NCBI GenBank assembly: GCA_016223165.1
Contig: JACRPO010000009.1
Coordinates: 248,001 to 312,000 of the forward strand
Length of the DNA stretch: 64,000 nucleotides
Source: Burkholderiales bacterium
Lineage (GTDB): Bacteria > Pseudomonadota > Gammaproteobacteria > Burkholderiales > Burkholderiaceae_C
Direction: 5' to 3'
Part shown: in pieces, positions 4,479-46,000 of the stretch
Layout: every line of letters starts with the position of its first letter
How positions within the stretch are numbered: position 1 is the first letter of the stretch
Notes under the pieces: model-generated
Database searches by the model: none
Told to the model about the DNA's origin: nothing
The model's input: only the letters and a program-made list of their open reading frames with translations
Made by a program: the position numbers and the translations under genes

Positions 4479-4588
4479 TGCGGCCTTGACGGGGCGCGGT
4501 GGCCTCTTGCTGCGAACTGCTTGCTTTTGGTTCCCTGCTTGCAGTCGGTGGCGGCGAAGGGCTGCGCGGGCAGGTCGCGTCGCTTAGC

Positions 4589-4624
4589 TGCGGCGGTCGG
4601 CCCCGGGGGGGCCCGACCGCCGCA
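4589..4624. other. Hairpin in intergenic gap of the secretion operon
   Basis: TGCGGCGGTCGG ... CCGACCGCCGCA, 12-bp perfect arms, GC loop; lies between ABC stop and hlyD start on the minus strand, no T tract. Confidence 0.5.
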
Positions 4625-4695
4625 ACCAAGCCCCGACGGGCTCCCGCCCGCGGCCTTGCCCGCCACGGTCGTCGAACGCCTAACGACACACGAAC

Positions 4696-7014: not shown

Positions 7015-7020
7015 CGGCGG

Positions 7021-8925: not shown

Positions 8926-9050
8926 GGGAGTCGTGCGGCGGTCCGGCAGACGGACGCCATCACGTTCCATGCTAGGCAGCCGGGGTTGCGTGCAAGGGCG
9001 CAACAGCGGGGCAAAACCGGGCCAGTTACGGCCCGTGGCGCGCGGCAGCG

Positions 9051-9071
9051 GCGCGCCGCCGGGCGGCGCGC
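9051..9071 (-). terminator. Terminator-like hairpin downstream of the peroxidase gene
   Basis: GCGCGCCGCC-g-GGCGGCGCGC immediately 3' of the minus-strand stop at 9076. Confidence 0.45.
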
Positions 9072-9075
9072 TTCT

Positions 9076-10167: not shown

Positions 10168-10419
10168 GGCAACGGCTCCTGGACTTGGGGATGGGATGCA
10201 GATCGGTACCGTGGGCGGGAACTTGAGGCGCATCTGCCGCCGAGCTCGAACCCCGGCGCGCGACAGATCTCGCGCGACAATGCCCCCGGCGGGTCGAGCA
10301 GTTCGCACAAGCGCTCCGTGCGGCCCGCGGCCCCTTGGGCCCGCGCGACGCCGGCCACCGCGGCGATCGGGCCGAAAGTGCCGAACGAGCCATGCCAGTC
10401 CCCACCCGCATTGCCGGCC

Positions 10420-10947
10420 ATGCACCCACGCGTGTTGACGTTGCCGCTTCCGACCCCGTCGCTCGCCGCGCTCACCCTGGCTGCCGCGCTCGCGGCGAGT
10501 GCGGCCATCGGCGCTGAGCCGCCGGAGCGCGAAGGCCTCGCCTGCACCGTCGCGAAGCAGTCGCTCGCCGAGGGACTGCGGCTCGAGGTCGTCTTCGCGA
10601 ACCGGACGGCCGAGCCGGTCTCGCTGCCGCCGGGGCCACACCTGGTGCTGTACCGGGACGCCGCGGCTTTGGATCCGATGGAGATCACCGCGCGCATCGA
10701 CCGCCTGCAGCGCACGCCCCTCGTCGTGCCGGCACAGGGCAGCGCGGTCGGCCTTTTCGGCGCCGACGCACGGCAGACCGAAGAGCTCCTGTGCAACGGC
10801 AGCAAGCCCGCCGCCGCCGGCCTCTACTTCTATCAGTTCAGTCGGCTACCCACGTTCCGCTGCCTGCTGCGCGATGCGCCGCTCGCCGCCTTGCCGATGA
10901 AGGCGGATTGCGCCACGGCAAGGAAGGCTGCCCTGCCCGGCCGCTAG
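10420..10947 (+). CDS. Exported hypothetical protein
   Basis: ORF with hydrophobic N-terminal signal-like segment (LAALTLAAALAASAAIGAE); no recognised family. Confidence 0.5.
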   Translation: MHPRVLTLPLPTPSLAALTLAAALAASAAIGAEPPEREGLACTVAKQSLAEGLRLEVVFANRTAEPVSLPPGPHLVLYRDAAALDPMEITARIDRLQRTPLVVPAQGSAVGLFGADARQTEELLCNGSKPAAAGLYFYQFSRLPTFRCLLRDAPLAALPMKADCATARKAALPGR

Positions 10948-10981
10948 CATCGGCCTGAAAGCCGAAGAGGGAGGAGAGACG

Positions 10982-11680
10982 ATGGCGGATTGGCCGAGCG
11001 ACATCTACACCGAGCCGACGAAGGTCGATGTCGACACGCTGGCCTGCCTTGGCCCGCTGGCGCCGCTGGCCGGCCTTTGGGAGGGCCAGCGCGGCCTCGA
11101 TGTGAAACCGAAAGCCGAGGGCCCGAAGAAGCAGGCCTACGTCGAGCGCATCGAACTGCAGCCGATCGACCCGCAGACCAACGGTCCGCAGCTGCTCTAC
11201 GGGCTGCGCTACCACACGCACGTCACCAAGCCGGGGCAGGTCAAGACCTACCACGACCAGGTCGGCTACTGGCTCTGGGAGCCGGCCACCGGCACCGTGA
11301 TGCACACGCTGACGATCCCGCGCGGGCAGACGGCGATGGCGGCCGGCACCGCCGCGCCTGATGCGAAGAGCTTCGACCTCGTCGCCACCCAGGGCCTGGA
11401 AACCTGGGGCATCTGCTCGGCACCCTTCCTGCAGCATGCCTTTCGCACCGTCGAGTTCCGCATCAAGGTGACGGTGAACGCCGACGGCACCTGGGGCTAC
11501 GAGGAAGACACGGTGCTGGTGATCCAGGGCCAGGCCGAGCCCTTCCACCACACCGACCGCAACCTGCTCGTGAAGGTGGGCGAGGCGACGCCGAACCCGC
11601 TGGCAGCGGCGGCGCGGGCCGCAAGAACGGCCGCAGCGGCCGCAGCGCCAGAACCGGCAAGCACGGCGAGCGCGCCCTGA
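10982..11680 (+). CDS. Heme-binding beta-barrel (FABP-like / nitrobindin-like) protein
   Basis: CLGPLAPLAGLWEGQRGLDVKP... LRYHTHVTKPGQVKTYHDQVGYWLWEPATGTVMHTLTIPRG pattern of the heme-binding beta-barrel family. Confidence 0.7.
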   Translation: MADWPSDIYTEPTKVDVDTLACLGPLAPLAGLWEGQRGLDVKPKAEGPKKQAYVERIELQPIDPQTNGPQLLYGLRYHTHVTKPGQVKTYHDQVGYWLWEPATGTVMHTLTIPRGQTAMAAGTAAPDAKSFDLVATQGLETWGICSAPFLQHAFRTVEFRIKVTVNADGTWGYEEDTVLVIQGQAEPFHHTDRNLLVKVGEATPNPLAAAARAARTAAAAAAPEPASTASAP

Positions 11681-11740
11681 GGGCGGGCGACTAGGCCACG
11701 ACTAGCCCGCCCTCCTGCCGGCCGCGACAGCGGGCCGCCT

Positions 11741-12577
11741 TCAGACCAGCCACGCGGCGCGGTAGTCCTTCGCATACTGCGCAAAGCTGCCCGGCGCGCG
11801 GCCGAGGATGGCCTGCACCGCGTCGGTGGTGCGCTCGGCATAACCGGCCTTGAAGAAGCCGAGGATGAGCACCAGGAACTCGGCGTAGGGGCGCGGCACC
11901 TGCGCGTCGAGCAGGCCCTTCAGCATCGCCTCGGGCGTGATGTCCTCGAAGCCGAGCGTGCGGCCGGTCTCGCGCGACAGGATCGCCGCCACCTCGTGAT
12001 GGTCGAACGCCTCGGCGCCGGTGAGGTCGAAGTCGCGGCCGTCGAGGTCGCTGCGCGAGAGCAGTTCGGCGGCCACGGCGGCGATGTCGCGCGCATCGAC
12101 GAAGCTGCCCTTGGCACGGCCCACCGGCAGGAAGATCGCGCCCTGCTCGCGCAGGCCGTGCAGCCAGAAGGTGTTGAAGTTCTGCATGAACCAGTTCGGG
12201 CGGATGACGTTCCACGCCAGCCCCGAGCGCTCGAGCGCGAGCTCGGCCTTGCGCAGCGGCGCCGCCTCGTCGGCATTGGCGCCCATGGCCGACAGCAGCA
12301 CCACTTTCGCCAGGCCGCGCTCGCGCGCCTCTTCGATGAGGGGCACGAGCAGCGCATCCTGCTGCGCATGGCCGGGCGGCGAGAGCAGGAAGGCGCGCGT
12401 CACGCCTTCGAAGGCGGCCGCCAGGCCCTGCCGCGTGGCGAGGTCCACCTGCACCTGGCCGGGCTGCGTGGGCGCGCGGTGCGTGCTGCGCACGACCTCG
12501 TGGCCGCGGGCGGCGAGCAGGCGCGCGAGTTCGGAGCCGACGGTGCCGCTGGCACCGATGACGAGGGTCTTGGACAT
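11741..12577 (-). CDS. NmrA-like NAD(P)-binding / SDR-type oxidoreductase
   Basis: MSKTLVIGASGTVGSELARLLAARGHEVV (GxxGxxG), SAMGANADEAAPLRKAELALERSGLAWNVIRPNWFMQNF. Confidence 0.88.
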   Translation of the reverse strand: MSKTLVIGASGTVGSELARLLAARGHEVVRSTHRAPTQPGQVQVDLATRQGLAAAFEGVTRAFLLSPPGHAQQDALLVPLIEEARERGLAKVVLLSAMGANADEAAPLRKAELALERSGLAWNVIRPNWFMQNFNTFWLHGLREQGAIFLPVGRAKGSFVDARDIAAVAAELLSRSDLDGRDFDLTGAEAFDHHEVAAILSRETGRTLGFEDITPEAMLKGLLDAQVPRPYAEFLVLILGFFKAGYAERTTDAVQAILGRAPGSFAQYAKDYRAAWLV

Positions 12578-22260: not shown

Positions 22261-22359
22261 GTGACATGGGCGTGACATGGGCATGTCGTGGGCACGACGA
22301 GGGCATGTCGTGGGCACGACGAGGGCATGTCGTGGGCACGACGTGGGGATGACACGTGC
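22261..22359. repeat. 11-bp periodic repeat array (about 9 units) composed of overlapping palindromes
   Basis: GTGACATGGGC x2, then alternating ATGTCGTGGGC / ACGACGAGGGC units; a 22-bp superunit GGGCATGTCGTGGGCACGACGA repeats at 22279, 22301, 22323. Confidence 0.9.
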
Positions 22360-22509
22360 GTGGGGCGTGCCCATCCCCCATCCCGAAAGCGCTTGCGCCC
22401 GGTCATGGCAGGCCCATCCCGAACGCATAGACTGGCCCGGATCCTGCATCGTGTGTGCTGCACCCTGCGCCCTGCGGCGCGAGCCCTGCGCCGCCATCAA
22501 GGACCTTCC

Positions 22510-25263
22510 GTGAGCATTCGCAATCTCGACGACCTGTTCGACCCGTCCTCGGTGGCGGTGATCGGCGCCTCCACGCGCGAAGGCAGTGTGGGCTACACGG
22601 TGTGGCGCAACATCCGCAGCGGCACCTTCGCCGGCCCGATCTGGGCCGTCAACGCGGGCCATGGCAGCGTGCAAGGCGACAAGGCCTACGCGAGCGTCGC
22701 CGACCTGCCCGGCGTGCCGGCGCTGGCCGTCATCTGCACGCCGCCGGCCACGGTGCCGGGTCTCATCGCCGAGCTCGGCGCGCGCGGCACGCGCGCCGCC
22801 GTGGTGCTCACCGCCGGCCTCACGGCCGAGCAGCGCCAGGCGATGCTCGAGTCGGCACGCACGCACGTGCTGCGCATCCTCGGCCCCAACTGCCTCGGCC
22901 TGCTCTCGCCGCCGGCCGGGCTGAATGCGAGCTTCGCGCCCGACCCTCTGTCGTCGGCGCATGTGGCTGCCGGCTCGCTCGCCTTCGTGTCGCAAAGCGG
23001 CGCGCTCGCCACCGCCATGCTCGACTGGGCGCGCGCGCGCGGCATCGGCTTCTCGCGCGTGGTGTCGCTCGGCGAAGGCGCCGATGTCGACTTCGGCGAC
23101 ATGCTCGACTGGCTGGCCAGCGACGCCAAGACGCGCGCCGTGCTGATATACGCCGAGTCGCTCTCACCGGCCCAGGGAGCGGCGCGCAAGTTCATGAGCG
23201 CGGCGCGCGCGGCGGCGCGCAACAAGCCGGTGCTGATGGTGAAGGCCGGCCGCAGCAGCGAGGGCCAGCGTGCCGCCGCCTCGCACACCGGGGCGCTCGC
23301 CGGCAGCGACCTCGTCATCGAGGCCGCCATCCGCCGCGCCGGCATGCTGCGCGTCGACACGCTGCAGGACCTGTTCGTCGCCGCCGAGACGCTGACGCGC
23401 TTCCGGCCGGCGGTGCGCGGCGCCGACGCCGAGGCGCTGGCGCGGCTCACGCTCGTCACCAACGGCGGCGGCGCCGGCGTGCTCGCCGCCGATGCCGCCG
23501 CCAGGCTCGGGCTCGAGCTGGCGACGCTGTCGCCCGAGCTCGTCGCCGCGCTCGACGCCGGGCTGCCCGCCAACTGGTCGCGCGGCAACCCGGTGGACAT
23601 CATCGGCGACGCGCCGGTCGAGCGTTATGTGCACACGCTGCGCACGCTGCTCGCCGCGCCCGCGGCGGGCAAGGTGCTCTTCATGCACGCGCCGACCGCC
23701 ATCGTGCCGGCGCGCGACATCGCCGCGGCGCTGGTGCCGGTGCTGAAGGAGTTCCCGGGCCGGCTGGCCAGCTGCTGGCTCGGCGCCGGCGCGGTGGCCG
23801 AGGCGCGCGCCCTCTTCATCGAGGCCGGCGTGCCGGTGTACGACACGCCCGAGCAGGCCGTGCAGGCGCTGACGATGCTCGTCAACTACCGGCGCAACCA
23901 GGAGCAGCTGCTCGAGGCACCTGCGGATGCGCCACCGCCCGCGCTGCCGGACGACCACGAACGCGCCGCACCGGGCGTGCGCGAACTCGTCGACGCCGCG
24001 CTCGCCGCCGGCCGCGAGTGGCTCACCGAGCCCGAGGCCAAGCAGCTGCTCGCCGCCTGCGGCGTGCCGGTGGTGCCCACGCGCACGGTGATCGCCTCGC
24101 CGATCGCCGCCGTCGCCGCCGCCACCGCGCTCGGCTTCCCGGTGGTGCTGAAGCTCCTGGCGCCCGAGATCACGCACAAGAGCGACGTCGGCGGCGTCAT
24201 GCTCGACCTCGGTTCGCCGGCCGAAGTGGCCGACGCGGCGACGCGCATGCTCGAGCGTGTCGCGGCGCGCCGGCCCGATGCGCACATCGAAGGCTTCACG
24301 CTGCAGCCGATGGTGCGCCGGCGGCGTGCGCTGGAGCTCATCGCCGGCACGCACATCGACCCGCTCTTCGGCCCCGTCATCCTCTTCGGCGCCGGCGGCA
24401 CGCGCGTCGAGGTGGTGGCCGACCGCGCCGTCGGCCTGCCGCCGCTGAACGAGCCGCTGGCGCGCGCGCTCGTCGCGCGCACGCAGGTCGCCAAGCTGCT
24501 CGCCGGCTGGCGCGACGTGCCGCCGGCCGACATGGCCGCGCTGCACGGCGTGCTCATCGCGCTGTCGCGCCTGATGGCCGAGGAGCCGCGCATCAGCGAG
24601 CTCGACATCAACCCGCTGCTCGCCGACGCCGACGGCGTGATCGCCCTCGATGCGCGCGTGCGCGTCAGCGCCGCGGCCCCCGGCGGCGAGGCGCGCTTCG
24701 CGATCCGCCCCTACCCGGCCGAGCTCACCGAGTCGTACGTGTGGGAGACGCCGGCCGGCCCGCGCACCGTGACGCTGCGCCCCATCCGCCCCGAGGACGA
24801 GGTGCGCCACCGCGACCTGCTCGAGCGCACCAGCGCCGAGGACATCCGCATGCGCATCTTCTACTCGCGCCGCACGATCGAGCGCAGCGAGCTCGCGCGG
24901 CTGACGCAGATCGACTACGAGCGCGAGATGGCCTTCGTGGCCACGGCGCCCATGCCCGCCGGCGAGGGCCCGGGCGGCGGCGACGAGGAGACGCTGGCCG
25001 TCGTGCGCACCGTCACCGACCCCAACAACCACGAGGCCGAGTTCGGCATCCTCGTGAGGAGCGACCTGCAGGGCGCGCGCCTCGGGCAGCGCCTGCTCAC
25101 GAAGATGATTCACTACCAGCGCAGCCGCGGCACCAAGCGCCTCGTCGCCACCGTGCTGCGCGAGAACACGCGCATGCTGGCGCTGGCCAAGGAGCTCGGC
25201 ATGGTGTCCGACTCGCAGCAGGTGGAGCCCGGGACCGTGCGGGTCGTGCTCGAGTTGAACTGA
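22510..25263 (+). CDS. Pat-like bifunctional acyl-CoA synthetase (NDP-forming)/GNAT acetyltransferase
   Basis: GTG start; CoA-binding DPSSVAVIGASTREGSVGYTVWRNI, ATP-grasp EITHKSDVGGVMLDL, C-terminal GNAT VTLRPIRPEDEVRHRDLLERTSAEDIRMRIFYSRR...FGILVRSDLQGARLGQRLLTKMI. Confidence 0.9.
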   Translation: MSIRNLDDLFDPSSVAVIGASTREGSVGYTVWRNIRSGTFAGPIWAVNAGHGSVQGDKAYASVADLPGVPALAVICTPPATVPGLIAELGARGTRAAVVLTAGLTAEQRQAMLESARTHVLRILGPNCLGLLSPPAGLNASFAPDPLSSAHVAAGSLAFVSQSGALATAMLDWARARGIGFSRVVSLGEGADVDFGDMLDWLASDAKTRAVLIYAESLSPAQGAARKFMSAARAAARNKPVLMVKAGRSSEGQRAAASHTGALAGSDLVIEAAIRRAGMLRVDTLQDLFVAAETLTRFRPAVRGADAEALARLTLVTNGGGAGVLAADAAARLGLELATLSPELVAALDAGLPANWSRGNPVDIIGDAPVERYVHTLRTLLAAPAAGKVLFMHAPTAIVPARDIAAALVPVLKEFPGRLASCWLGAGAVAEARALFIEAGVPVYDTPEQAVQALTMLVNYRRNQEQLLEAPADAPPPALPDDHERAAPGVRELVDAALAAGREWLTEPEAKQLLAACGVPVVPTRTVIASPIAAVAAATALGFPVVLKLLAPEITHKSDVGGVMLDLGSPAEVADAATRMLERVAARRPDAHIEGFTLQPMVRRRRALELIAGTHIDPLFGPVILFGAGGTRVEVVADRAVGLPPLNEPLARALVARTQVAKLLAGWRDVPPADMAALHGVLIALSRLMAEEPRISELDINPLLADADGVIALDARVRVSAAAPGGEARFAIRPYPAELTESYVWETPAGPRTVTLRPIRPEDEVRHRDLLERTSAEDIRMRIFYSRRTIERSELARLTQIDYEREMAFVATAPMPAGEGPGGGDEETLAVVRTVTDPNNHEAEFGILVRSDLQGARLGQRLLTKMIHYQRSRGTKRLVATVLRENTRMLALAKELGMVSDSQQVEPGTVRVVLELN

Positions 25264-25478: not shown

Positions 25479-25928
25479 TCAGTCCTGCTGCGGCGGCTCG
25501 AGCGCCTCGAGATCCGCCAGATCCTTCAGCCGGCCGCTGGCGCGCTTGTTGGCCTTGAAGTCTTCGAGTCCGATCAGTTGCAGCTCGGTGCCTTCCAGCA
25601 CCACCTGAAGACGACGAGGCCAGCACTCGGCGAAGTTGACGCCGTCGATCTGCGTCAGCAGGTCGATGCGGTTGGGGGGGCGGCCGAGTTGAATCACCGA
25701 GTCGCCGCCGAAATCCTCTCGCCGCAGGCCCAGGGAGCCAAAGCCGAAGGCGGCCAGCGCCGCGAGCAGACGCTCGATGTTGGCCGCCTCCGGCGCGATC
25801 CAGAAGTCGATATCGCCGGTGTAGCGCGGGTGCCCATGCGCCGCCAGCGCATAGCCGCCGACGAGAAGGTACTCAACGCCGTGCGCGTGGAGCAACTCGG
25901 CAAACTCTTTGAAGTCGCGATTGAGCAT
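25479..25928 (-). CDS. Nucleotidyltransferase-fold protein (DUF6036/AbiEii-like)
   Basis: FAELLHAHGVEYLLVGGYALAAHGHPRYTGDIDFWIAP (GG...T.DID motif of nucleotidyltransferases). Confidence 0.8.
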   Translation of the reverse strand: MLNRDFKEFAELLHAHGVEYLLVGGYALAAHGHPRYTGDIDFWIAPEAANIERLLAALAAFGFGSLGLRREDFGGDSVIQLGRPPNRIDLLTQIDGVNFAECWPRRLQVVLEGTELQLIGLEDFKANKRASGRLKDLADLEALEPPQQD

Positions 25929-26070
25929 CCGAGGGCGCAGCGGCGTCGATGGCCTGCGCACGCAAGGTCTCCAGCGCGGCAAGGCGTGCCTCGACGGGCT
26001 GGGACAACCAGAACTCGAGATCGGCTCGCAGCTGAGTGCTCCTGCGGGTCACGACCAGGGTGCGTTCCAT
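25873..26070 (-). CDS. Small (65 aa) protein upstream of and overlapping the nucleotidyltransferase
   Basis: MERTLVVTRRSTQLRADLEFWLSQPVEARLAALETLRAQAIDAAAPSDAQSRLQRVCRVAPRARR; WLSQPVEARLAALETLR matches the small partner typically found before such nucleotidyltransferases. Confidence 0.65.
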   Translation of the reverse strand: MERTLVVTRRSTQLRADLEFWLSQPVEARLAALETLRAQAIDAAAPSDAQSRLQRVCRVAPRARR

Positions 26071-26156: not shown

Positions 26157-28529
26157 TCAGCCCGCGGCGAGCCGCCAGGCCGCGGCGGCGCTGCGCAGGC
26201 GCTCCGAGAGGTGCAGCGCGAGGTTGCGGTAGATCTGCGCCGCCACCGCCGGCTGATCGTGCTGCAGCTCCTGCAGCAGCGCGGCCGGCAGCTGCCACAC
26301 CGTGCTCGCCTCGTCGGCGCGGGCGTCGGCGGTGCGGCCGCCGCCGTCGAGCACGGCGGTCTCGCCGAAGCACATGCCGGGCGAGAAGCTCACGAAACGC
26401 TGGCCGCGTGCGCGGTCGAGCACGCTCACGGACCCCTCGGTCAGCAGGTAGATCGCGTCGCCGGGGTCGCCTTCGCCGAACAGGCGCTCGCCCGCTTGCA
26501 GGCGGCGCTCGGCCAGGCGCGGCAGCAGCGCCGCCAGGGCCGGTGCGGGCAGCCCTTCCAGCAGCGCGTTGCGCGCCAGCGGCACCGCAAGGCCGGCCGG
26601 GTCCGCGCCCTCGCGCTGCAGCAGCGTGCGCTCGGCCGCCTCGATCGCGTGGTCGGCGTCGGGGTTCAGTTGCCAGGGCATCGGTCCGCCGTCCGCCGGC
26701 CGCAGCATCCCTTGCGCCTGCAGCGCACGCCCGTGGCGGTTGTCGACGGTGACGCCGGCCAGCAGCAGCGTGACGCCGCCACCCTCGAGCCGCTCGCGCA
26801 GCATCGCCAGCCCGACCGCGCCCGAGGCGTCGATTGTGCTCACGCGCCGCAGGTCGAGCACCAGGAAGCCGCGGCCCTGCCCGGCCGGCCCGGCCCGACC
26901 GGCCAGCGCCGCCTGCCCCGCCTGCACGGCCTCCTGCGCCAGCCGGTCGGCATTGCCGAAGAAGAGCGCCCCTTCCAGCTCGATGACCTCGATGCGCGGG
27001 CGCAGCCGCTGCAGGCGCGCCTCGAACACCGGCGGATAGACGCGGCGGCTCGCCACCTCGGCGGCGCTGTAGCGCAGGCGCACCAGCGAGCGGTGGAGCG
27101 CGCGCATGAAGATGAGCATCGACAGCAGCACGCCGACACCCACGGCCGCGACGAACCCCGCGGCGAGCGTGACGACGCAGACGATGGCCGCGATGACGAG
27201 GCTCCACTGCAGCTCGGCGGTGCGTTCGCCGCGCCACCACTCCAGCACGAGCCGCCGCGTCCAGCGGTCCACCAGCCCCCAAGCCAGCATGACCACGATG
27301 CCGGCCACCACCGCCAGCGGCACGCCGGCGAGCCAGGGCAGCGCGAGCGCGAAGACGAGTGCCAGCATGACGCAGCTCAGGGCCACCGCGCGGGCGCCGC
27401 GTCCGCCGGCCGAGAGCGTGGTCATGGCGCGCAGGCGCAGGTAGGTGACAGGCAGGCCGCCGACGAGGCCGATGGCGACGTTGGCCAGCCCGAGCGCGAC
27501 CAGTTCGCGGTTGGTGTCGGTGCGTCGTCTCAGCCGCTGGTCGATCGCCGCCAGGTTGAGCGCCGACTCCAGCCCGCCGATCAGCGCCACCAGCAACGCG
27601 GTGGTCGCCAGCGTCGACGCGTGCCGCGACAGCGCGGCGAGCGCCGGCGCATCGGCGAGGGCCAACGCCGCCTCGGGCCGCGGCAGGCCGGCGCTGAGGG
27701 CGCCGAAGGTCTGCAGCGCACAGGTGCCGGCCGGGGCCCCGCCGGTGCAGGCCGTCTGCAGGGCCAGCACGAGCGCCGTGCCCAGCACGAGCGCGGCGAG
27801 ACCGGCCGGCACGCGTGGCCAGCGCCATGCCACGGCCGCCATCACGGTCGCCGAGAGGAGGGTCGCGACCAACGCCGGCCAATGCCATTGCGCGAGCGCG
27901 CCGAAGCCCCGGCGCGCCAGCTCGTCGGCCGCGACGCCGGCGATGACGGGCAGCTGCGACAACACCATCAGCACGGCCACGCCGTTCATGAACCCGGCCA
28001 GCACCGGCTGCGGCACGAAGCGCACCAGCGCACCGGCGCGCATCAGCCCGAACAGCACGAGCACCGCGCCGCTGCCCATGACGGCGAGGCCGGTGGCGGC
28101 GAGCAGCAGGGCTGCGCCGCCCGGGGTGGCCGGATGCAGCGCGCTGTCCTGCACCAGCCGCGCCACGCAGGCACCGAGCAGCAGCGCCGTCGACGAGCTC
28201 GGCGCGGCGGCGGGCATGGGCGCGCGGCTCGCCAACAGGTAGACCAGCGCACCGAGCACGAGGGCGACGATCGCCCCCGAGACACCCATCTGCACCGCGG
28301 CCAGGCCGGCAGCCCCGAAGGCGACGACACCCCAGCTGGCCGCCATCGGCAGCATGGCCACCGTGGCGTTGAGCGCGCCGAGCGCATCGCCCGACCAGGC
28401 GCCGGTGCCTGCCGGCGTGGGTGCCGGCATGGGCGCCGGCATGGGCGCCGGTGTGGGTGGCGGCGAGGGTGGCGGCATGGGCGCCGGTACGGGCCCAGGC
28501 ACGGGCGCCGGAACCGCGGCCGGCTTCAT
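26157..28529 (-). CDS. SulP-family anion transporter with STAS and C-terminal cyclic-nucleotide-binding domain
   Basis: Multi-TM SulP core, STAS segment GRGFLVLDLRRVSTIDASGAVGLAMLRERLE, CNBD segment LQAGERLFGEGDPGDAIYLLTEGSVSVLDRARGQRFVSFSPGMCFGETAVLDGGGRTADARADEASTVWQLP. Confidence 0.9.
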   Translation of the reverse strand: MKPAAVPAPVPGPVPAPMPPPSPPPTPAPMPAPMPAPTPAGTGAWSGDALGALNATVAMLPMAASWGVVAFGAAGLAAVQMGVSGAIVALVLGALVYLLASRAPMPAAAPSSSTALLLGACVARLVQDSALHPATPGGAALLLAATGLAVMGSGAVLVLFGLMRAGALVRFVPQPVLAGFMNGVAVLMVLSQLPVIAGVAADELARRGFGALAQWHWPALVATLLSATVMAAVAWRWPRVPAGLAALVLGTALVLALQTACTGGAPAGTCALQTFGALSAGLPRPEAALALADAPALAALSRHASTLATTALLVALIGGLESALNLAAIDQRLRRRTDTNRELVALGLANVAIGLVGGLPVTYLRLRAMTTLSAGGRGARAVALSCVMLALVFALALPWLAGVPLAVVAGIVVMLAWGLVDRWTRRLVLEWWRGERTAELQWSLVIAAIVCVVTLAAGFVAAVGVGVLLSMLIFMRALHRSLVRLRYSAAEVASRRVYPPVFEARLQRLRPRIEVIELEGALFFGNADRLAQEAVQAGQAALAGRAGPAGQGRGFLVLDLRRVSTIDASGAVGLAMLRERLEGGGVTLLLAGVTVDNRHGRALQAQGMLRPADGGPMPWQLNPDADHAIEAAERTLLQREGADPAGLAVPLARNALLEGLPAPALAALLPRLAERRLQAGERLFGEGDPGDAIYLLTEGSVSVLDRARGQRFVSFSPGMCFGETAVLDGGGRTADARADEASTVWQLPAALLQELQHDQPAVAAQIYRNLALHLSERLRSAAAAWRLAAG
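28417..28512. repeat. 12-bp tandem repeat (8 degenerate units) encoding the Pro-rich N-terminus of the SulP protein
   Basis: Units gtgggtgccggc / atgggcgccggc / atgggcgccggt / gtgggtggcggc / gagggtggcggc / atgggcgccggt / acgggcccaggc / acgggcgccgga. Confidence 0.85.
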
Positions 28530-31500
28530 GCTCCGCCCCCGCCTGGCGACGCGGCGGTGGCGCGCGGCGGGCCTTCGGCCACGCGGCGCCGCAAGGCGGC
28601 CCAGTGCGGCAAGGCCTGCACGCGGCTGCGCGCCAGGTCATCGGGCAACTGGGCCAGCTGCTCCTGCAAGCGCAGCTGCAGATGGCCCAGCAGGCCCGCG
28701 GCACGGTCGTCGGCCACGTCGGCCGCGTCGGCCGCGTCGGCCACGCCGGCCACCCCTGCACGAGCATCGAGCACGCGCACGCAGGTCAGCAGCGCATCGG
28801 GGTCCAGCTGACGGTAGCCGGCGTCGCCCGCGTTGGAGGCCGTGGCCAACACCTCGTCGACGGCGCGCAGCGCATCGGCCGCGCGGCCACCGGCGAGGTC
28901 GAGGGCGGCGATCTCGCAGCGCATCTGCGCGACCTCCGGCTCGCGTCCCTGGGCCGCGTACAGATCGAGGGCCCGCTGCAACGCCGCTCGGGCGCCATCG
29001 GCGTCACCGCGCGCCGCGGCCACGTGTCCCAGGCACTGGTGCACCAGCGGCCGCACGAAGTCGTTGCCGGCGGCCTGCACCAGGCGCATGGCCTGGTCGG
29101 CCGCGTCCTGGGCGCCGGCGATTTCACCCAGGGCCAGAGCGGACTGCGCCACATCGAGCAGCGCCGTCGTCTGCAGGCGCGGCATCGCGAGCTCCAGCGC
29201 GCACTCGAGTGCCTGCTGCGCCGTGGCGCGTGCCTCCTGCCACGCGCCCAGTTCGTGCTGCGCCCTGTACAGCAGCTGCAGCAGGATGTAGCGGTCGTGC
29301 GGCAGCGGCCGCGGCCGGCGGGCCAGGCTCGCGAGGCCGCGCTCGGCCGCGCGCGCCGCCTCGGCATGGCGCTCCTGCAGCGCCAGCGCATGGATCTCGA
29401 TGCTGCGCAGCTGCAGCTCGTAGCCGTCGTAGCCGCCCTGCGACCCCGGCAGCAGCGCCGTGCGGCGCGCCTGCTCCAGGGCCTCGGCCAGGTGCGGCTC
29501 GGCGCGCACGAAGTCACGCCGCCCGACGGCCAGCCAGGCCAGCTCGCCGTGCGCCAGGGTGAGCGGCGGAGCAGCGGCGGGATCGGTGCTGTGCGCCAGC
29601 AGCGCGACCGCCTGCTCGGCCAGCCGCTGCGCGTCTTCGGCGCGGCCTTCGTGGTCGGCCCGCAGCATCTTCGCCGTGGCGAGGTCGGCGCGCATGACGT
29701 CGTCGTCGCAGGCCTCGGCCCATTCGTGCATCGCCTGCGCCGCCCGCCCGGCCTCCTCGCGGCGCTCCTGGCGGTCGAAGACGATATGGCGCCCGTGCAG
29801 CAGGCGGAAGCGGTGGCGCGGCGCGGTGAGCGCCGGTTGCGCCAGCGCCCGGTCGATGAGCCTCAGCGCGGCGTCGTGGGCGAAGCGGGCCTCGGCGTCG
29901 CGGCGCGCGCGATCGTAGAACTCGAGCGCCCTCGCGCTGTCGCCGGCGCGCTCGTAGTGCTCGGCGGTGATGACGACGAACTCGCGCTCGCGCCCGACGG
30001 CGCGTGCCGCCAGCCAGCGCGCCGCGCGCGCGTGGCCCTCGCGCCTGGCGGCCTTGAGCACGGTGCCGTACGTCACGTCGTGCAGCAGCTGGTGCTGGAA
30101 GGCGTATTCGTCGCTCTGCCCGAAGGCGCTCGCCTGCCGGCGCACGAGCAGGCCGCGATGCATCAGCACCGGCAGCGCCGCGGGCGCCGCCGCATCCAGC
30201 TCGGCCAGCGCCGACGACCAGAAGACCGGCCCGACGATGCTCGCCTGCTGCAGCGCCGCGAGCTCGGCGGCGGGGAGCGCATCGAGGCGCGCCTGCAGCA
30301 CGCCCAGCAGCGTCTCGGGCACGCGCAACTCGCTCAGCCGCTCGGCCACCAGGCGCCAGGGGCGCGTGCGCGTGTCGATGACGCCGTCGTCGATGAGCAT
30401 GCGCACCAGCTCTTCCATGAAGAACGGGTTGCCGCCGGCGCGCTGCAGCAGCAGCTGGCGCAGCGGCTCGGGCGCGCCCTGCATGGCGCCCAGCAGGGCA
30501 TCGGCCAGCGCGGTGCAGGAGGCATCGCCGAGCGGGGGCAGATGCACGTGCTGCCGCTCCATCTCGGGCGTCTCGGCCGGCAGCGCCCGCGCCTCCGCCC
30601 AGCCGGGGCGCGCCAGGATCAGCAGCAGCAGCGGCACCGGCGCCGGCTGCGCCAGCGACTTCACGAAGTCCAGCGAGGCCTCGTCGGCCCAGTGCAGGTC
30701 CTCGAAGACGAGCAGCAGCGGCGTGCTCGCGGCCACCGCGCGCAGCGCCTCGCCCAGCGCGCCGAAGGCCTGCTCGCGCAGCTCGCGCGCGCCCAGCGCC
30801 TGCACCGCAGCGACGGCGCCGAAGTCCAGGCCCACGAGCTGGCCGACGCGCTGGGCACGCGCCTGCGCATCGGCGCCCAGCCAGGGGCCGAGGCCGCCGA
30901 CCAGCCGCGCCCGCGCCTCGTCGGCGGTGAGGTCGTCGAAGATGCCCAGCCAGCGCGCCAGCAACTGGCGCAGCAGGCCATAGGCCTGCAGCTCGCTGCT
31001 CGGCTGCGCGCGCACGCGCAGGCAGTGCACGGCGTGCGCCGTGGCTGCCGTGACGGACCGCGGGCGCGGCGGCGCCCCTTCGATCGCGCCCACGCGCTTG
31101 AGCAGTTCGCGGCGCAGGCGTGTCTTGCCCATGCCCGCCTCGCCGGTGACCACCGCCAGCGCCGCCCGCCGCGTGCGCACGCTGCGCTCGCACAGGCCGA
31201 GCAGGCCCTGCAAGGCCGGCTCGCGGCCGACCATCGGCGTCGCCAGGCCCTCGATGCCGCGGCGCACCGTGCGCTCGCCCTCGTCCTCGTCGCGCTTCAC
31301 GAGAAAGGTGACGAGCGGCTCCTCGAGACCCTTGACCACGAGCGGCGGCTGGGCCTCCAGGCGGAAGAGCCCGCGCACCTGCTCGCGCGTCTCTCGGCTG
31401 ATGCGCAGGCGCCCGACCGGCGCGCTCTGCTCCATGCGCGCGGCCAGGTGCACGGCGTGCCCGATGGCGCCGCGCTCTTCGTCGACACCGTCGCCGAGCA

Positions 31501-32041
31501 GCACCATGCCGGTGTGGATGCCCGCGCGCACGCCGAAGCGCGCAATGCCGAGCGGCCGCGCCACGCGTTCGGCGTGCTCGGCCGCCGCCTCGAGGATGCG
31601 CAGGCCGGCGCGCACGGCCTGCGCGGCATCGTCCTCGCGCAGGCGCAGCGAGCCGAAGGCCGCCTTCAGGCCGTCGCCGGTGAAGCGCAGCACCTGCCCG
31701 CCGTGCGCGCGCACGATGCGCGCGAAGGCCTCGAGCGCGTCGCTCACCAGCGCCAGCGCGTCCTCGGCGCCGACGCGCTCGAGCATCGCCGTCGAATCGG
31801 CCACGTCGACGAAGAGCACGCTCACCAGCCGCAGCCGCGGCGCCTGCGCCTGCGGCTGCGCCTGCTGCGCCAGCGGTGCCTCGGGCGACTGCTGCGCCTG
31901 TGTCGCCTGCATCGCCTGTGTAGCTTGCTTCGCGTTCGCGCGCAGCGCCCCCACGGCGGCGTCGACGGCGGCGTCGCCCAGCGCACTGCGCTGCGCCTGC
32001 AACTGTGCGATGGCGGTTTCGAGTGGGCTCGGCTCAGTCAT
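28526..32041 (-). CDS. Class III nucleotide cyclase-homology / AAA-type ATPase / TPR signalling protein
   Basis: LVSVLFVDVADSTAMLERVG...VLRFTGDGLKAAFG...GAIGHAVHLAARMEQ (cyclase homology), VVTGEAGMGKTRLRREL (Walker A), LLLVFEDLHWADEASLDF (Walker B), long C-terminal TPR region. Confidence 0.9.
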   Translation of the reverse strand: MTEPSPLETAIAQLQAQRSALGDAAVDAAVGALRANAKQATQAMQATQAQQSPEAPLAQQAQPQAQAPRLRLVSVLFVDVADSTAMLERVGAEDALALVSDALEAFARIVRAHGGQVLRFTGDGLKAAFGSLRLREDDAAQAVRAGLRILEAAAEHAERVARPLGIARFGVRAGIHTGMVLLGDGVDEERGAIGHAVHLAARMEQSAPVGRLRISRETREQVRGLFRLEAQPPLVVKGLEEPLVTFLVKRDEDEGERTVRRGIEGLATPMVGREPALQGLLGLCERSVRTRRAALAVVTGEAGMGKTRLRRELLKRVGAIEGAPPRPRSVTAATAHAVHCLRVRAQPSSELQAYGLLRQLLARWLGIFDDLTADEARARLVGGLGPWLGADAQARAQRVGQLVGLDFGAVAAVQALGARELREQAFGALGEALRAVAASTPLLLVFEDLHWADEASLDFVKSLAQPAPVPLLLLILARPGWAEARALPAETPEMERQHVHLPPLGDASCTALADALLGAMQGAPEPLRQLLLQRAGGNPFFMEELVRMLIDDGVIDTRTRPWRLVAERLSELRVPETLLGVLQARLDALPAAELAALQQASIVGPVFWSSALAELDAAAPAALPVLMHRGLLVRRQASAFGQSDEYAFQHQLLHDVTYGTVLKAARREGHARAARWLAARAVGREREFVVITAEHYERAGDSARALEFYDRARRDAEARFAHDAALRLIDRALAQPALTAPRHRFRLLHGRHIVFDRQERREEAGRAAQAMHEWAEACDDDVMRADLATAKMLRADHEGRAEDAQRLAEQAVALLAHSTDPAAAPPLTLAHGELAWLAVGRRDFVRAEPHLAEALEQARRTALLPGSQGGYDGYELQLRSIEIHALALQERHAEAARAAERGLASLARRPRPLPHDRYILLQLLYRAQHELGAWQEARATAQQALECALELAMPRLQTTALLDVAQSALALGEIAGAQDAADQAMRLVQAAGNDFVRPLVHQCLGHVAAARGDADGARAALQRALDLYAAQGREPEVAQMRCEIAALDLAGGRAADALRAVDEVLATASNAGDAGYRQLDPDALLTCVRVLDARAGVAGVADAADAADVADDRAAGLLGHLQLRLQEQLAQLPDDLARSRVQALPHWAALRRRVAEGPPRATAASPGGGGA

Positions 32042-32227
32042 GCGCGGGCGGGTCACATCGATGGGGTGGTCGATGGCGTGGTTGCGGCCGTTCGCGCCCG
32101 GCGAAGGACCCCGTGGGTGACTCCTTTTGCCGTCGCGCCGCCGGCCACGCAAGCCGGGCTTTCCCGAGCGGGCCGGGCCTCGACCCGCCACGCGACAGGG
32201 GCCGCACCGGCGGCCGAGAATCATCGC

Positions 32228-39564: not shown

Positions 39565-42500
39565 TCAGCACTGCCATGCGAGCACCGCACGATTCACGGC
39601 GTTGGCCTGGGCAAATGCGTGTCGTAACGTCGGCGCCATTCGCACGCTTGCCGCATCGACCCATTGGCGAGCGACTCGCACGCAGGCGATCCGGCGCTCG
39701 TCTTCGCCGCCACGCTCGAAAGCCCGCGCCAGATCGAGCAGGACCTCGGGGAGATAGCCCCTAGCACTGAGCCCGCCGGCGACGTGCTCGTCGAGTGATC
39801 GTGCGAGTGCAAGCGCAGCCTCGGTCGCTGCCCGTCCGCGTACCTCGAGCCAACGCGCCAGCTCGCGCCAGGCCAACGTGCGAGCAGTGCCATGCATGCC
39901 GAGGGCCAGGAGTTCGGCCCGGGCGCGCTGCAGCCGCTCGATGGCCGCGGGTGCCTCTTCGCGGTAGGAGACCTCGAAGTCGACGCCCAGGACCACGGGT
40001 AGATCCGCGTGCGCGGTCACCAAAGTGTCGAAACGCTGCCAGTAGGGCCGCGGCGACGTCCGATCCAGTTCAGCGGCGCGCGCCAGCAGCCACAGCGCCT
40101 GCAGCTGCATACCCGGCGGAACACCCATGGCAGGTACCTGCAATGCCAGTGCGCGAGCGCGGTCGGCTCGACCGAGCTGCAACCAGACTCCGGCCAGCGC
40201 GATGAGTGCCTTCGCTCGCACGGCAGCGGCCGCCTCGGGCCCGGCGCGGTCGACGGCCTCCTGCAGCGCCGCCAGCGCCTCGTCGAAGTTGCCGAGTGCG
40301 GCCGCCGCGGCGCCGAGCACGGTGCTGTTGAGGACGAAGGGAGTGCTGTTGTTCGCAAGACCGAGGTCGGCTTGCTGCTTCCGTGCGCTGCTAGCCTGGT
40401 CGTAGGTCGCGCGCACGTCGCCCACGCCGGCCAGCAAGGCCGCGAGGCTGATCCGCGAGGCAACCATCAAGGTGCGGTCACCAAGCGCCTCGGCGCAGGC
40501 GAGTTCCTCGCGCTGCACGGCCACCGCATCGGCCAGGCGCCCGACTGACCAGTGCACGTACATCTGCGCATTGAAGGCTTTCAGCGCCAGTTGCGGATCG
40601 CCGCGCGCCCGTGCCGTCTGCACAGCCTGCGTGGCCTGCACAAGCGCGGCCTCCGTGCGCCGGCTCTGCGCTAGCGCAATGGCCAGCTGGCAGTGAACGC
40701 GCAGCGCAAGGTCGGCGTGCGCGGCGGCCTCGTCCAGCGCGCGTTGCGCATCGACCGCGGCGTCGAGCGCCCGACCCTGCTCCAGCAGCGCCTCAATGCG
40801 TTCGATGCGGCAGCTCACTCGTTGGGCGGAGGTATCCGCCAGCAGCTCCACCTCAGGCAACGCGGCCAGCACCGCAGCCCCGCCCTGGCGCAGGTGCAAG
40901 CACTCGAGCCGCGCGAGCAGCGCAGTGAAACAGGCCGTACGGTCCCCTGCTTCTCGATGACAGCGGGCAGCGGACTCGAGCAGCGCGGACTGCTCCGCCA
41001 GCTGGCCGGCCAGTCGCGCCGCCTGTGCGGCCCGATGCCACGCCCTCCCCGCCTCCGACCAACGCAACCCGCGTTCCCAATGCTCGGCGATGCGAGCCGG
41101 AAGGGCACCATCTTCATCCTCCAGCAGAGCGGCCCAGCGCCGGTGCAGCGCTTGGCGAAACCCCTGCGGCACCGATCGCAGTGCCGCCTCGTGCACGAGG
41201 TCGTGGCTGAACGCCTCGCCGCGCAGGACGTTGCTGGCCTCGAGCTGTGCCCAGGTGTCGGTCAGGTCGAGCGGGGCGCGGGCGAGCAGGCGTGCCGCGC
41301 GCTCGACGTTCAGGTCGGCGCCGCCGACGGCGGCGACCTGAAGCAGCTCGCGCGTATGGCCCGGCAGGTCACGCACGCGTGCATCGAGCAGCGCATTCAC
41401 CGCGGGTAGCTGCTGCAGCGCGCCGGCATGCTGCAGCCCAACGCCCCGCACCACCGCGTCCTGCAGCGTCGCCAGCGTATACAGCGGGTGGCCGCCCGCG
41501 TGGCGATAGAGGTGCACCGCCACCCGGTCATCGAGCAGGGTCGGCAACGCCAGGCTGGCCAGCAACTCGCGAAGCTCGGACGGCGTCAGAGGCTTCAGAT
41601 CGATGCGCGTCGGGCGTTGCGAGTCGGAGAGCCACTCTTGCAGCACCACACCGACACCCTGCTCGGACCATGGCCGCGACGCGAAGCCCAAACGCAATGC
41701 CGACAGCGCGGGGCTCGCCGTCAGCCAGCGCAGGGTCTCCAGCGAACCCCGGTCGGCGTTGTGTAGATCGTCGACCACGATGGCACGCAGGCCGCGGGTG
41801 AGTGCATCCGAAAGCCAGTCTTCGATGGCGTGCCGCACTACAGCCAAGTTCGCCGGCGTCGCCGGTCGCTCGCCGAGCGCGGGCTGCACCCGTGCCAATT
41901 CGGCGCGCTGCGGGGCGCTGCACCTCGGGGCGAAGCGCTGCTCGACCATGAGCAGCAGCCGCCCAAGCAGTGCGTCCGACGATTGATCGTCGCCTGGACG
42001 CGCGCGGTCCGCCAGAAGCCCGTCGCGGTCGTGCGCGAACACTTCGAGCAACCGGCTCTTGCCGAGCCCGGCCTCGCCGACCAGCACGAAGGGTTGCTGC
42101 CGCTCCCACGCTCCCACCATCTCGGTCCAGGGGCCATGCCGCCCGATCAGCAACGGCGGCCGCAGGAGGCTGGCAGGCACCGGGCGGTTCGGCAAAGGCA
42201 CGGGCGATGCGCCGGCCGCCTCCAGCGTCTGGGCCAGCTGTTGCGTTTCGCCGCTGGGGCGCACGCCCAGCTCGTCGCGCAGCAGCGCGTGAACGCGCCA
42301 GTACGCCTCCTGAGCGGCGGCGCGGTCACCGCTCAGATAGTGCAGGCGCATGAGCCGCCGCCAGCCCTGCTCGGCAAGGGGCATCCACTCGACAGCACGA
42401 CGGGCCATCGCCACGGCTTCGGCCAGGTGACCGCGTTGCTCTAGGGCATCGGCGTGTTCGGCCAGCCGGCTCGCGCAACGTTCGGCCACGCGCCGGCGCG

Positions 42501-42963
42501 CGTCAGCCAGCCAGCGATCGAGGTCGTCCTGGTCGCCGAAATCCAGCCCCGCGAGCAGCTCGGGGCTCGTGAGGAGTTTGTCCTCGCCGAGACGTTCGAT
42601 CTGGCACACGTCCACGATCACTCCGGGGTGCAGCGATGTCGTGGCGCCAAGCTCTACGAAGGGCACCCCCGCCGCCGCGCGCAACCGGCTCGCTCGCTGG
42701 CGCAGGCTGGCGGCTGCCTTCTCGGGCGTGCTGTCCGGCCAAAGAAGCTCGCACAAAGTATGGCGCGGCTGCGGGCCGTCGAGGGCGAGCTTGGCCAGCA
42801 AGGCCGCATCCTTGCCCGAGAGTGCCAGGGGTTCACCTCCGCCCACGCGCCAAGCCGGCGCACCCATCAGGTGCACCGTCAGCTGGTCCTCTTGCGAATC
42901 TCCCTGAGGGACAGCGGCAGCCACTTTCTTCTTCGATGACGCGGCGACAGCGAGGCCGCGCAT
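39565..42963 (-). CDS. BTAD (SARP-type) domain - ATPase - TPR transcriptional regulator
   Basis: VHLMGAPAWRVGGGEPLALSGKDAALLAKLALDGPQPRHTLCELLWPDSTPEKAAASLRQRASRLRAA (winged helix), BTAD region ...MPLAEQGWRRLMRLHYLSGDRAAAQEAYWRVHALLRDELGVRPSGET, Walker A VLVGEAGLGKSRLLE. Confidence 0.87.
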   Translation of the reverse strand: MRGLAVAASSKKKVAAAVPQGDSQEDQLTVHLMGAPAWRVGGGEPLALSGKDAALLAKLALDGPQPRHTLCELLWPDSTPEKAAASLRQRASRLRAAAGVPFVELGATTSLHPGVIVDVCQIERLGEDKLLTSPELLAGLDFGDQDDLDRWLADARRRVAERCASRLAEHADALEQRGHLAEAVAMARRAVEWMPLAEQGWRRLMRLHYLSGDRAAAQEAYWRVHALLRDELGVRPSGETQQLAQTLEAAGASPVPLPNRPVPASLLRPPLLIGRHGPWTEMVGAWERQQPFVLVGEAGLGKSRLLEVFAHDRDGLLADRARPGDDQSSDALLGRLLLMVEQRFAPRCSAPQRAELARVQPALGERPATPANLAVVRHAIEDWLSDALTRGLRAIVVDDLHNADRGSLETLRWLTASPALSALRLGFASRPWSEQGVGVVLQEWLSDSQRPTRIDLKPLTPSELRELLASLALPTLLDDRVAVHLYRHAGGHPLYTLATLQDAVVRGVGLQHAGALQQLPAVNALLDARVRDLPGHTRELLQVAAVGGADLNVERAARLLARAPLDLTDTWAQLEASNVLRGEAFSHDLVHEAALRSVPQGFRQALHRRWAALLEDEDGALPARIAEHWERGLRWSEAGRAWHRAAQAARLAGQLAEQSALLESAARCHREAGDRTACFTALLARLECLHLRQGGAAVLAALPEVELLADTSAQRVSCRIERIEALLEQGRALDAAVDAQRALDEAAAHADLALRVHCQLAIALAQSRRTEAALVQATQAVQTARARGDPQLALKAFNAQMYVHWSVGRLADAVAVQREELACAEALGDRTLMVASRISLAALLAGVGDVRATYDQASSARKQQADLGLANNSTPFVLNSTVLGAAAAALGNFDEALAALQEAVDRAGPEAAAAVRAKALIALAGVWLQLGRADRARALALQVPAMGVPPGMQLQALWLLARAAELDRTSPRPYWQRFDTLVTAHADLPVVLGVDFEVSYREEAPAAIERLQRARAELLALGMHGTARTLAWRELARWLEVRGRAATEAALALARSLDEHVAGGLSARGYLPEVLLDLARAFERGGEDERRIACVRVARQWVDAASVRMAPTLRHAFAQANAVNRAVLAWQC

Positions 42964-43082
42964 TGTCTCCGCACGGATGAAGAGCGGGAAGAGCGCGAGC
43001 CCCCGCTGCGGCTTCACGCCCAGCGCGGTGCATGAGACGATCGCGTCCGACGAACAAGAGCCACGCGTCTGGGGAGGCGAGC

Positions 43083-46000
43083 ATGGACAACAGCACGCGG
43101 TGTGAGCCCGGGTACGAACTTCGCCGTGCCCTTGCTGGCTTACTGTTGCTCGGTGCCGGTGCGCTGCCCGCGCACGCACAGACCGGGATCGCGTCGCAGC
43201 TGGCTGAGCCCGAAGGCGAGAAGTTGCTGTGCCTTCCGGTGCACGGCACGATGAACGACGACACCGTTGCACTGCGTTTGGCCGCGCCGCCCCTGTCGCC
43301 CCAGATGGGCGCTGGCACACTCCAGATGATCATGCAGCGGCTCATGGGCGGGGGGCTCGGTGTGACGCCTCCTGCGAGCGCAACCCAAGGCAATGCGCTC
43401 GCCGGCCTCGCGTTCGGCTCCCCGCCCGCGACGCGCAGCTTGGTCGACGGCAGCGTCGATGCCAACGCTGGGCGCCACGCCGAAGCGCAGCGCCGGCTGA
43501 ACGAGTGTGCGCAGCAGGCGGCCGGACAGAAGGACAGCCTGCTCGAGGCGGCCTGCCGGAACAACCTCGGCGTTTCGCTCGCCGCTCAGGGACAGTGGGC
43601 CCGGGCACGGAGCGAGCTCGAGGCAGCTTTGAAGCTGTATCGCGCGCCGCGCGATCCTCCCGCCGACCTGCCGATGCCCCAGGGCATGGGGGGGATGTTG
43701 CCAGGATCGCACCCGGCGATGTCCGCAGTCACGCAGCAAATGCTGGAGCGCATGTCACCCGAGCAGCGTGCAGCCTACGAGGCGCAACGGCCGGCCTTGG
43801 AGGAGCAAGTGCGTGCGAGCCAGTCCGCGATGTCCACGGCGCTGGCATCGGCCTTGAGAGAGGGTGCGCCCAGGCAATGGCGCGAGTACGAGCGCCTGGA
43901 CACATTGCGCGGCATGGAGCGCACGCTGCTCAACCTCGGCAACCTGTCGGTGGCCGCCGGCCGCCTCGGCGAGGCCGAGCCGCTGCTCGAGGACGCGATG
44001 CGCGGCCGCGTCGAGGGCGAGTCTGCCGCGTGCGCCACCGCTGTAGCCATGGACCTCGCCCGCCTGTTCCAGCGGCTGCGGCGCACCGCCGACATCCGCG
44101 CGCTGATGGCACGGTACCGACTCGAACGCGGAGTCGAGGCGCGCGGCGAGCCAGAGGGCGTCTGGAGCAGTGTCGAGATGGGCGTGGTGCGCTTGGCGGG
44201 TAACCGGCCCGAAGGGTCGCCGGCGGTGGTGTCCGCGCCCGCGCACGCTCCGCAAGCCACCAACCCAGGCGACCGAACTGAGTTGTCGATCGACTTCAGT
44301 TTTGCGGAGGCCGGCAGCCGATTCGACGACAGTGCGCTTGCAAGGCTGCACCAGCAGGCCGCCGCCGCCGACGCGGCACGAGGACCCGGTGCCTTCCGCG
44401 CCTGGCGGCTGCTCTCCTTGCGGGCCCAGGCTGCACGGCGGCCCGACCTGCAGTACTCCGCGCACGCCGCACTCATGAACCTGCACGTGCGTCAGGCGGA
44501 GACCGACGCCGCGATCTTCCACGGCAAGCGTGCGGCTAACCTGGCGCAGGCCGTACGCGCAGCCCTGGGCGATGCCTCGCCCTCGCGCGACACGCGCCGG
44601 GCGTTCCTGCGCCAACGGCGGCGGGTGTATGTGACGCTGGCGCAGCTGCTGCTGGACGCGCAGCGCCTGCAGGAGGCCGAGTCGGTGCTGCACGTGTTGA
44701 AGGAGGACGAAGGGCAGCAGTTCATCGGCAGCGCTGCCGGTGCAGCCCTCGGCACCTTGGCCCTGACAGGCCCCGAGTCCGATGCGACGCGGCAGGACGA
44801 TGAAGCGGCTGCGCGGTTACGCCGCGGCGAGCAGGGGCGCGTAGCCGCCGTCGCGCAGGTGCCCATGGGCGCGAATGTGCTCTTGATGCTGAAGCCCGCT
44901 CAGTTGGAAGTGGGACGGATCAGGGCCGGCCTCGCACTGCCCGGGCTCGCAGCACAGTTGAGGCAGCGGCCGTGGCGCACTCTGGCAGGCGACGAGAAGC
45001 TCCGCGCCGCCGCCGCCGATCTGCAGGACTTCTTCGTCGGCCCGAGTGGACGCCTCGAACGATTCCTCGTCCACCTGCTGGAGGACGCATCGGCGTTCGA
45101 CCCGCCGGTCGCCGCGGCAGACCGGACCCGGCTCGCCGAGACGTTGAAGCGCGTGCCACAGATTCAGGCCGAACTGAGGCCATTGCTGAGCGTCATCCCG
45201 GTCGATGCAGCGAGCGCTATCACCACGACGACTCGGCCCGGCGGCAGCGCCGACGCTGCAGCGCCAGAACTGGGCCCATGGGATTTCGCGATGGCTGAAC
45301 CCGCCGAGCGCTTGTGGCGCGAGCCGCGGGAGGTGGACCGCCTCGAGGCCCGTCACCTGCAGGGAGGTTTCGGCACCGCCCCGCGCTCGCGCACTGCAGA
45401 ACCAACGCAACCTCTGGCGGGCGTGCAGGAGGAGACGACTGCGCTGATGGCCAGGCAACCCGTGCCCACCGCGTTGCTGTACTACTTGACGGGCGAGCAA
45501 CGGCTCGACGCGCTGCTCGTCACTGCAAAGGGCCGCCGGCACTTCCGCTTGGCGGTTTTGCAGTCCGAACTGGACGCGCAGATCGATGACTTCGCAAAGC
45601 GGCTGCGCCAGCCCGAACGCGACCTGCGGCCGGCGGCCGCCGCCTTGTACCAGCGGCTGTTCGCGCCGGTCGCGCAGGCGATGGCCGACAGCGGTGCGCA
45701 GGTGCTCGCGTTGTCCCTGTCCGGAAAGCTGCGCTTCGTTCCTTTCGCCGCGCTCTACAGCGGGCACGGTTGGTTGGTCGAGCGGTATGCGCTGGCGGTC
45801 CACCCCGGCGGAACGCTGCAGGGCAGGCTCAGACCGGCGTCACCGAATTGGCGCGTGGCGGCCTTCGGTGCCAGCATCGGCGATGCGGAGTTCCCGCCGC
45901 TGTTGAACGTGGCCGGCGAAATCGCCGGCATCGTGCGCCAGCGCGGGAGCCCCGGCGGCGCACTGCCGGGCGAAGCCTGGCTCGACCGGGCCTTCACCGC

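Follow-up and report, generated by a model that had tools for sequence, protein, structure and literature searches.

The window analysed here, a stretch of 64,000 nucleotides from a Rubrivivax-like bacterium, carries on its reverse strand two genes that overlap by the four letters ATGA and encode P0001, which joins a class III cyclase homology domain to a STAND-type ATPase and helical repeats, and P0002, a SulP transporter with a STAS domain and a C-terminal cyclic nucleotide-binding domain (CNBD) (Table 1). The sequence-only reading of this DNA had proposed both reading frames, their overlap and the domain content of both products. All of this is confirmed: the frames and their overlap by the coordinates of the TGA stop and the ATG start, the upstream product by Pfam matches to Guanylate_cyc and AAA_16 together with an all-helical repeat C-terminus in the AF2 model, and the downstream product by Pfam matches to all three of its domains. 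An alternative, earlier in-frame start of P0001 is possible at 32224; orthologues align from the ATG at about 32041. Between the window and L148, a locus of the same clade, dN and dS are 0.12 and 0.37 for the cyclase gene and 0.16 and 0.52 for the SulP gene, and both genes are thus under purifying selection with dN/dS of about 0.3. A promoter and terminator scan gave no useful signal.

Table 1. Features of the gene pair in the window, and of two loci used for comparison
Feature	Position	Strand	Basis
P0001, class III cyclase - STAND AAA_16 ATPase - TPR protein, 1171 aa	32041-28526	-	Pfam, AF2 model, fold matches
Class III cyclase homology domain, P0001 residues 68-249	31295..31840	-	Guanylate_cyc (PF00211), 60.4 bits
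AAA_16 / STAND NTPase domain, P0001 residues 270-472	30626..31234	-	AAA_16, 70.3 bits; P-loop GEAGMGKT, Walker B-like EDLHWAD
TPR-like helical repeat sensor region, P0001 residues ~700-1150	28592..29944	-	Weak TPR_12; AF2 all-helical with high pLDDT; 6mfv fold match
Stop/start overlap ATGA, P0001/P0002	28526..28529	-	Stop TGA 28528-28526, start ATG 28529-28527
P0002, SulP-STAS-CNBD anion transporter, 790 aa	28529-26157	-	Pfam, AF2 model, fold matches
SulP/SLC26 membrane domain, P0002 residues 45-479	27093..28397	-	Sulfate_transp, 121 bits (47-421); Glu321 (TM8), Arg365/Arg367 (start of TM10)
STAS domain, P0002 residues 510-594	26748..27002	-	STAS, 34 bits (Pfam)
Cyclic nucleotide-binding domain, P0002 residues 675-755	26265..26507	-	cNMP_binding, 63 bits; Glu723 (ribose) and Arg732 (phosphate) positions
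L193, sAC-like C1-C2-AAA-TPR cyclase and divergent SulP-STAS-CNBD gene	3910-7692, 7494-10115	-, +	Another betaproteobacterium
L094, cluster of SulP-STAS-CNBD, glutaminase-STAS-CNBD, cyclase-like/TPR and CNBD-NTE-patatin genes	L094:8099-18326	one strand	

Three other genes of the window lie in the surroundings of the pair. A few kilobases away, at 39565-43320 (-), a BTAD-AAA_16-TPR protein (Pfam) represents a second STAND-type regulator; the frame at 22288-25263 (+), judged by reading alone, resembles a fusion of an NDP-forming acyl-CoA synthetase and a GNAT domain, comparable to the protein acetyltransferase Pat; and downstream of the pair, at 25479-25982 (-), lies the gene for a small nucleotidyltransferase-like protein (DUF6036 at 25.2 bits, AbiEii just under its cut-off).

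P0001 has both the fold and the profile of a class III cyclase, followed by an AAA_16-type NTPase with a P-loop and by a repeat sensor, as in STAND ATPases. Foldseek on its AF2 model (pLDDT 85.6) placed the whole protein closest to 6mfv, a STAND protein with a TPR sensor; the AAA_16 NTPase, the conserved P-loop and the TPR-like repeats are common to both, whereas the effector of P0001 is the cyclase domain. The P-loop and the Walker B-like motif are kept across the P0001 family, in which G303, G305, K306 and R308 are invariant. The repeats reach only a sub-threshold TPR_12 score in Pfam (20.8 against a cut-off of 30.1), and the model shows them as a long all-helical C-terminus. By fold, the cyclase domain matches Cya2, CyaB, CyaC and Rv1900c, with target-normalised TM-scores of 0.8-0.9 to Cya2, CyaB and Rv1900c. 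The NCBIfam model for TOMM kinase/cyclase proteins also matched, under its cut-off, and the name was not used.

Of the six canonical catalytic positions, P0001 has changes at three. The metal-binding Asp79 and Asp123 and the transition-state Arg202 are all retained, and the canonical substrate residues are replaced, Lys by Arg119, Thr/Asp by Gly191 and Asn by His198. Both metal Asp residues and the Arg are likewise present in all aligned family members except one, and in the SulP-adjacent family members examined, where the exception is an sAC-like protein at L193 in which these residues are split over two domains. At the three substrate positions, near orthologues keep the Arg and have Gly/Ser/Thr and His, respectively. 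Viewed across the family, Gln or Arg almost always takes the place of the Lys that contacts adenine; Gly stands at the Thr/Asp position in the window and L148, most other members having Ser or Thr there, and His occupies the Asn position in the clade of the window. Since replacement of Lys by Gln or Arg is the rule in this family, it is no mark of decay. We withheld a class IIIb or IIIc label because the family combines Thr/Ser at the substrate position with Gln/Arg in place of Lys. P0001 is a probable producer of a cyclic nucleotide, either cAMP or cGMP; its catalysis is plausible, though the three replacements leave it uncertain.

The transporter has in common with the SulP/SLC26 family (AtSULTR4;1, SLC26Dg, BicA) a Sulfate_transp membrane domain with STAS, an Arg in TM10 and an acidic residue in TM8, to which it adds the C-terminal CNBD and a second TM10 Arg. 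Its AF2 model (pLDDT 84.5) matches prestin, SLC26 and AtSULTR4;1 by fold; the first 43 residues form a Pro/Ala-rich repeat of low model confidence, encoded by a 12-base tandem repeat at 28411-28511 of the window. In the alignment, Glu321 corresponds to Glu347 of AtSULTR4;1 and Arg367 to Arg393, which in the AtSULTR4;1 structure serve proton coupling and the anion site, respectively, whereas in BicA an Asp at the position of Glu321 serves Na+ (PMC8298490). In SLC26 proteins, the anion site features a basic residue where TM10 begins (PMC11078650). Glu321 is invariant among near relatives of P0002, as is the second TM10-start Arg, and the TM10 Arg residues are absent from BicA. Although P0002 matches the BicA membrane domain best by sequence, SLC26 members of very different substrates match it about equally well, and the score against the BicA equivalog of NCBIfam is 95.2 bits against a cut-off of 880. 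A match to the NCBIfam sulP model also fell under its cut-off, and we left that name unused. Since Glu321 and Arg367 match AtSULTR4;1, TM10 starts with a basic residue and the BicA cut-off was missed, an H+-coupled anion carrier resembling SLC26/SULTR proteins is favoured over a bicarbonate carrier, and the bicarbonate transport proposed in the sequence-only reading is not supported. Further SulP-STAS-CNBD genes include one in the same genome as the window (L085, G000:C12:29145-31496), 45% identical and with no cyclase neighbour, and a shortened copy of 533 aa at L073:8079-9677, which has lost most of its membrane domain and is convergent with a full-length copy at 9756-12167.

The CNBD of P0002 holds the ribose Glu and the phosphate Arg in its binding cassette, and among 101 SulP CNBDs the Arg is kept in all and the Glu in 99, while Ser or Thr directly follows the Arg in 100. 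This conservation is strong evidence of selection for cyclic-nucleotide binding, with or without a neighbouring cyclase. The domain matches the cyclic-nucleotide-gated channel SthK by fold and the MloK1 CNBD by sequence. These proteins, too, are membrane proteins with a C-terminal CNBD and a Glu/Arg pocket; the gated part, however, is a cation channel in SthK and MloK1 and would be a secondary anion carrier with STAS in P0002.

How often such transporters lie beside a cyclase was counted in 100 related genomes. A P0001-family cyclase adjoins seven of the 41 SulP-STAS-CNBD genes in the sample, the window's own included (window, G054, G042, G032, G053, G004 and G006), against about 0.4 of 41 expected to have a cyclase within 5 kb from the per-genome counts of PF00211 cyclases, an estimate that takes loci as independent. 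In the same search, none of 70 SulP genes without a CNBD has a P0001-family cyclase within 10 kb (Fisher p = 7e-4). Scanning 84,980 species genomes yielded 343 relatives, and among the best 80 of the 343 loci a cyclase lies within 8 kb in 12. The cyclase-transporter pairing is therefore real and recurrent. The conserved-pair search proposed as a check in the sequence-only reading recovered the pair, with its gene order unchanged, from at least three further species, and differently ordered pairs occur as well. SulP-STAS-CNBD genes mostly lack an adjacent cyclase, and a class-level survey found a neighbouring cyclase at none of ten such loci outside the order; the transporter family is thus broader than the cyclase pairing, and the transporter would be able to use the general nucleotide pool. 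P0001-family cyclases also adjoin Crp-type CNBD regulators (L115, L139, L136, L147). In the open-access literature that our search covered, we found no relevant paper linking SulP-CNBD or glutaminase-STAS-CNBD proteins to cyclases, and on cyclase-CNBD gene neighbours PMC4886424 alone. There, a bacterial class III cyclase-like gene beside a CNBD gene was taken as evidence of function, but no SulP or other named transporter is among the partners listed (PMC4886424).

The arrangement of the pairs varies. Cyclase and SulP-STAS-CNBD genes stand in tandem at L148, L149, L154, L192 and L166 (the last cut by a contig end), convergently at L178, L183 and L185, and divergently at L188 and L193; L149, L154, L166 and L188 are the loci counted above in G054, G042, G032 and G053. 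Cyclases of other types lie near the transporter at L156 and L214. L105 has the opposite gene order and an in-frame overlap, GTGA; at L148 and L068 SulP can start at a TTG that overlaps the cyclase stop (TTGA); and at L082 the genes are neighbours separated by about 20 bases or more. The four nearest pairs, those of the window, L148, L068 and L082, form one clade and were therefore counted once rather than as independent cases. Mapped onto a 54-cyclase tree, SulP adjacency requires at least eight changes, gains or losses; shuffled labels need 11 on average and as few as eight in 6 of 500 shuffles. Related species have assembled this pairing repeatedly and with differing gene orders, so that it is probably a real messenger-controlled transport switch.

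We consider it reasonably probable that P0001 and P0002 form a local second-messenger module that switches a SulP anion carrier. With its STAND ATPase and TPRs, P0001 would sense some signal, upon which an ATP-dependent rearrangement or oligomerisation would pair the cyclase domains into a class III dimer, a step modelled on what is generally known of STAND proteins and class III dimers. The dimer would make cAMP or cGMP, which would bind the CNBD of P0002, and the CNBD would act via STAS to turn the carrier on or off. The latter is probably H+-coupled, for sulfate or an organic or inorganic anion, and not a BicA-type Na+/bicarbonate transporter, and overlapping translation may keep the two proteins in step. 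Direct cyclic-nucleotide gating of P0002 is likely.

Two other accounts of the pair must be weighed here. It is conceivable, though unlikely, that the cyclase domain of P0001 has lost cyclisation and that the protein regulates as a STAND protein or acts as a partner that binds nucleotide; the CNBD of P0002 would then read the cell's general cAMP, supplied by other cyclases. The three substrate-site replacements, the six further PF00211 matches in the host genome and the lack of a cyclase neighbour at most SulP-STAS-CNBD genes would all fit. However, the metal Asp pair and the transition-state Arg persist in the SulP-adjacent family members examined (L193 apart), the change of Lys to Gln or Arg is usual throughout the family, and its recurrent placement next to CNBD proteins would be unexplained if the cyclase were a mere bystander. 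Adjacency by chance or hitch-hiking, with both families abundant in the genus and the overlap a product of a compact GC-rich genome, would be consistent with the several cyclases per genome in this genus and with the shared descent of close orthologous pairs; set against seven pairs observed where 0.4 were expected, the absence from all 70 SulP genes without CNBD, the several gene orders and the number of changes on the cyclase tree, it is most improbable.

The sequence-only reading had likened P0001 to mammalian bicarbonate-stimulated soluble adenylyl cyclase (sAC, ADCY10) and had seen in the pair a self-contained anion/bicarbonate sensing and transport loop, in which a nucleotide made by one protein would gate the other. 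On this account, an sAC-like cyclase activated by bicarbonate would gate a BicA-like bicarbonate transporter. Like P0001, sAC is a soluble protein that joins a cyclase part to an AAA-type ATPase and TPRs, a layout extending beyond its solved C1-C2 core, and this likeness speaks for the account. The two differ in that ADCY10 has two unlike cyclase domains in tandem, C1-C2, whereas Pfam finds one in P0001, presumably homodimeric and with altered substrate residues; nor is ADCY10 among the 40 PDB sequence matches of P0001. The bicarbonate account draws some support from L193, which by its sequence has the true sAC layout beside the same type of transporter: the neighbouring protein, a single locus on a long branch of the cyclase tree, combines a pair of cyclase domains with AAA_16 and TPR, human ADCY10 is its top match in the PDB and covers both of these domains of the pair (E 3.6e-27), and its half-sites are complementary, domain 1 holding both metal Asp residues and no Arg, and domain 2 holding Thr, Asn and Arg and no metal Asp. 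Yet at what we take to be the bicarbonate site of sAC, Lys95 and Arg176, this protein has Tyr and Ala. With a single cyclase domain in P0001, Gly at the Thr position in the window and L148, and a carrier which, despite its top match, resembles BicA neither in score nor at the TM8 and TM10 positions and matches SLC26 proteins of very different substrates about as well, the bicarbonate loop is very unlikely. Its gating half fares better: since the linkage recurs, is missing from SulP genes without CNBD and comes with conserved pocket residues, we infer that cyclase and CNBD transporter are functionally linked and that the CNBD is under selection to bind a cyclic nucleotide.

The STAS-CNBD cassette is not confined to transporters. 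Glutaminases also carry it (L094, L102, L205), and the clusters that hold SulP and glutaminase-STAS-CNBD genes include CNBD-patatins and other CNBD proteins too. At L094 four such genes follow one another on one strand (Table 1), and at L102 and L103 SulP-STAS-CNBD, glutaminase-STAS-CNBD and cyclase-like/TPR genes lie together, with SulP divergent. The cyclase-like domains of the glutaminase clusters are themselves divergent and go unreported by Pfam at E 0.001, and their activity is therefore less certain. More tentatively, with the balance tilting slightly against it, we suggest that a portable STAS-CNBD cassette of Burkholderiales, Rubrivivax-like ones and others, may place SulP carriers and glutaminases, along with CNBD-patatins, under dedicated neighbouring STAND-cyclases, as a modular and repeatedly assembled cyclic-nucleotide system.

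Crp-like regulators are the main known recipients of cyclic-nucleotide signals in bacteria, and the SLC26 family includes human disease proteins. If the proposed gating is true, the pair would exemplify, in compact form, direct messenger control of an SLC26-family transporter by a translationally coupled cyclase. It would offer a simple system for asking what role STAS plays in the SLC26 family and which signals STAND-cyclases sense, for which the reversed, convergent and divergent pairings would provide natural replicates. Should the wider cassette also prove real, a modular cyclic-nucleotide system would gate transport and metabolism directly, beyond transcription, and the pair in the window would be its simplest, two-gene form.
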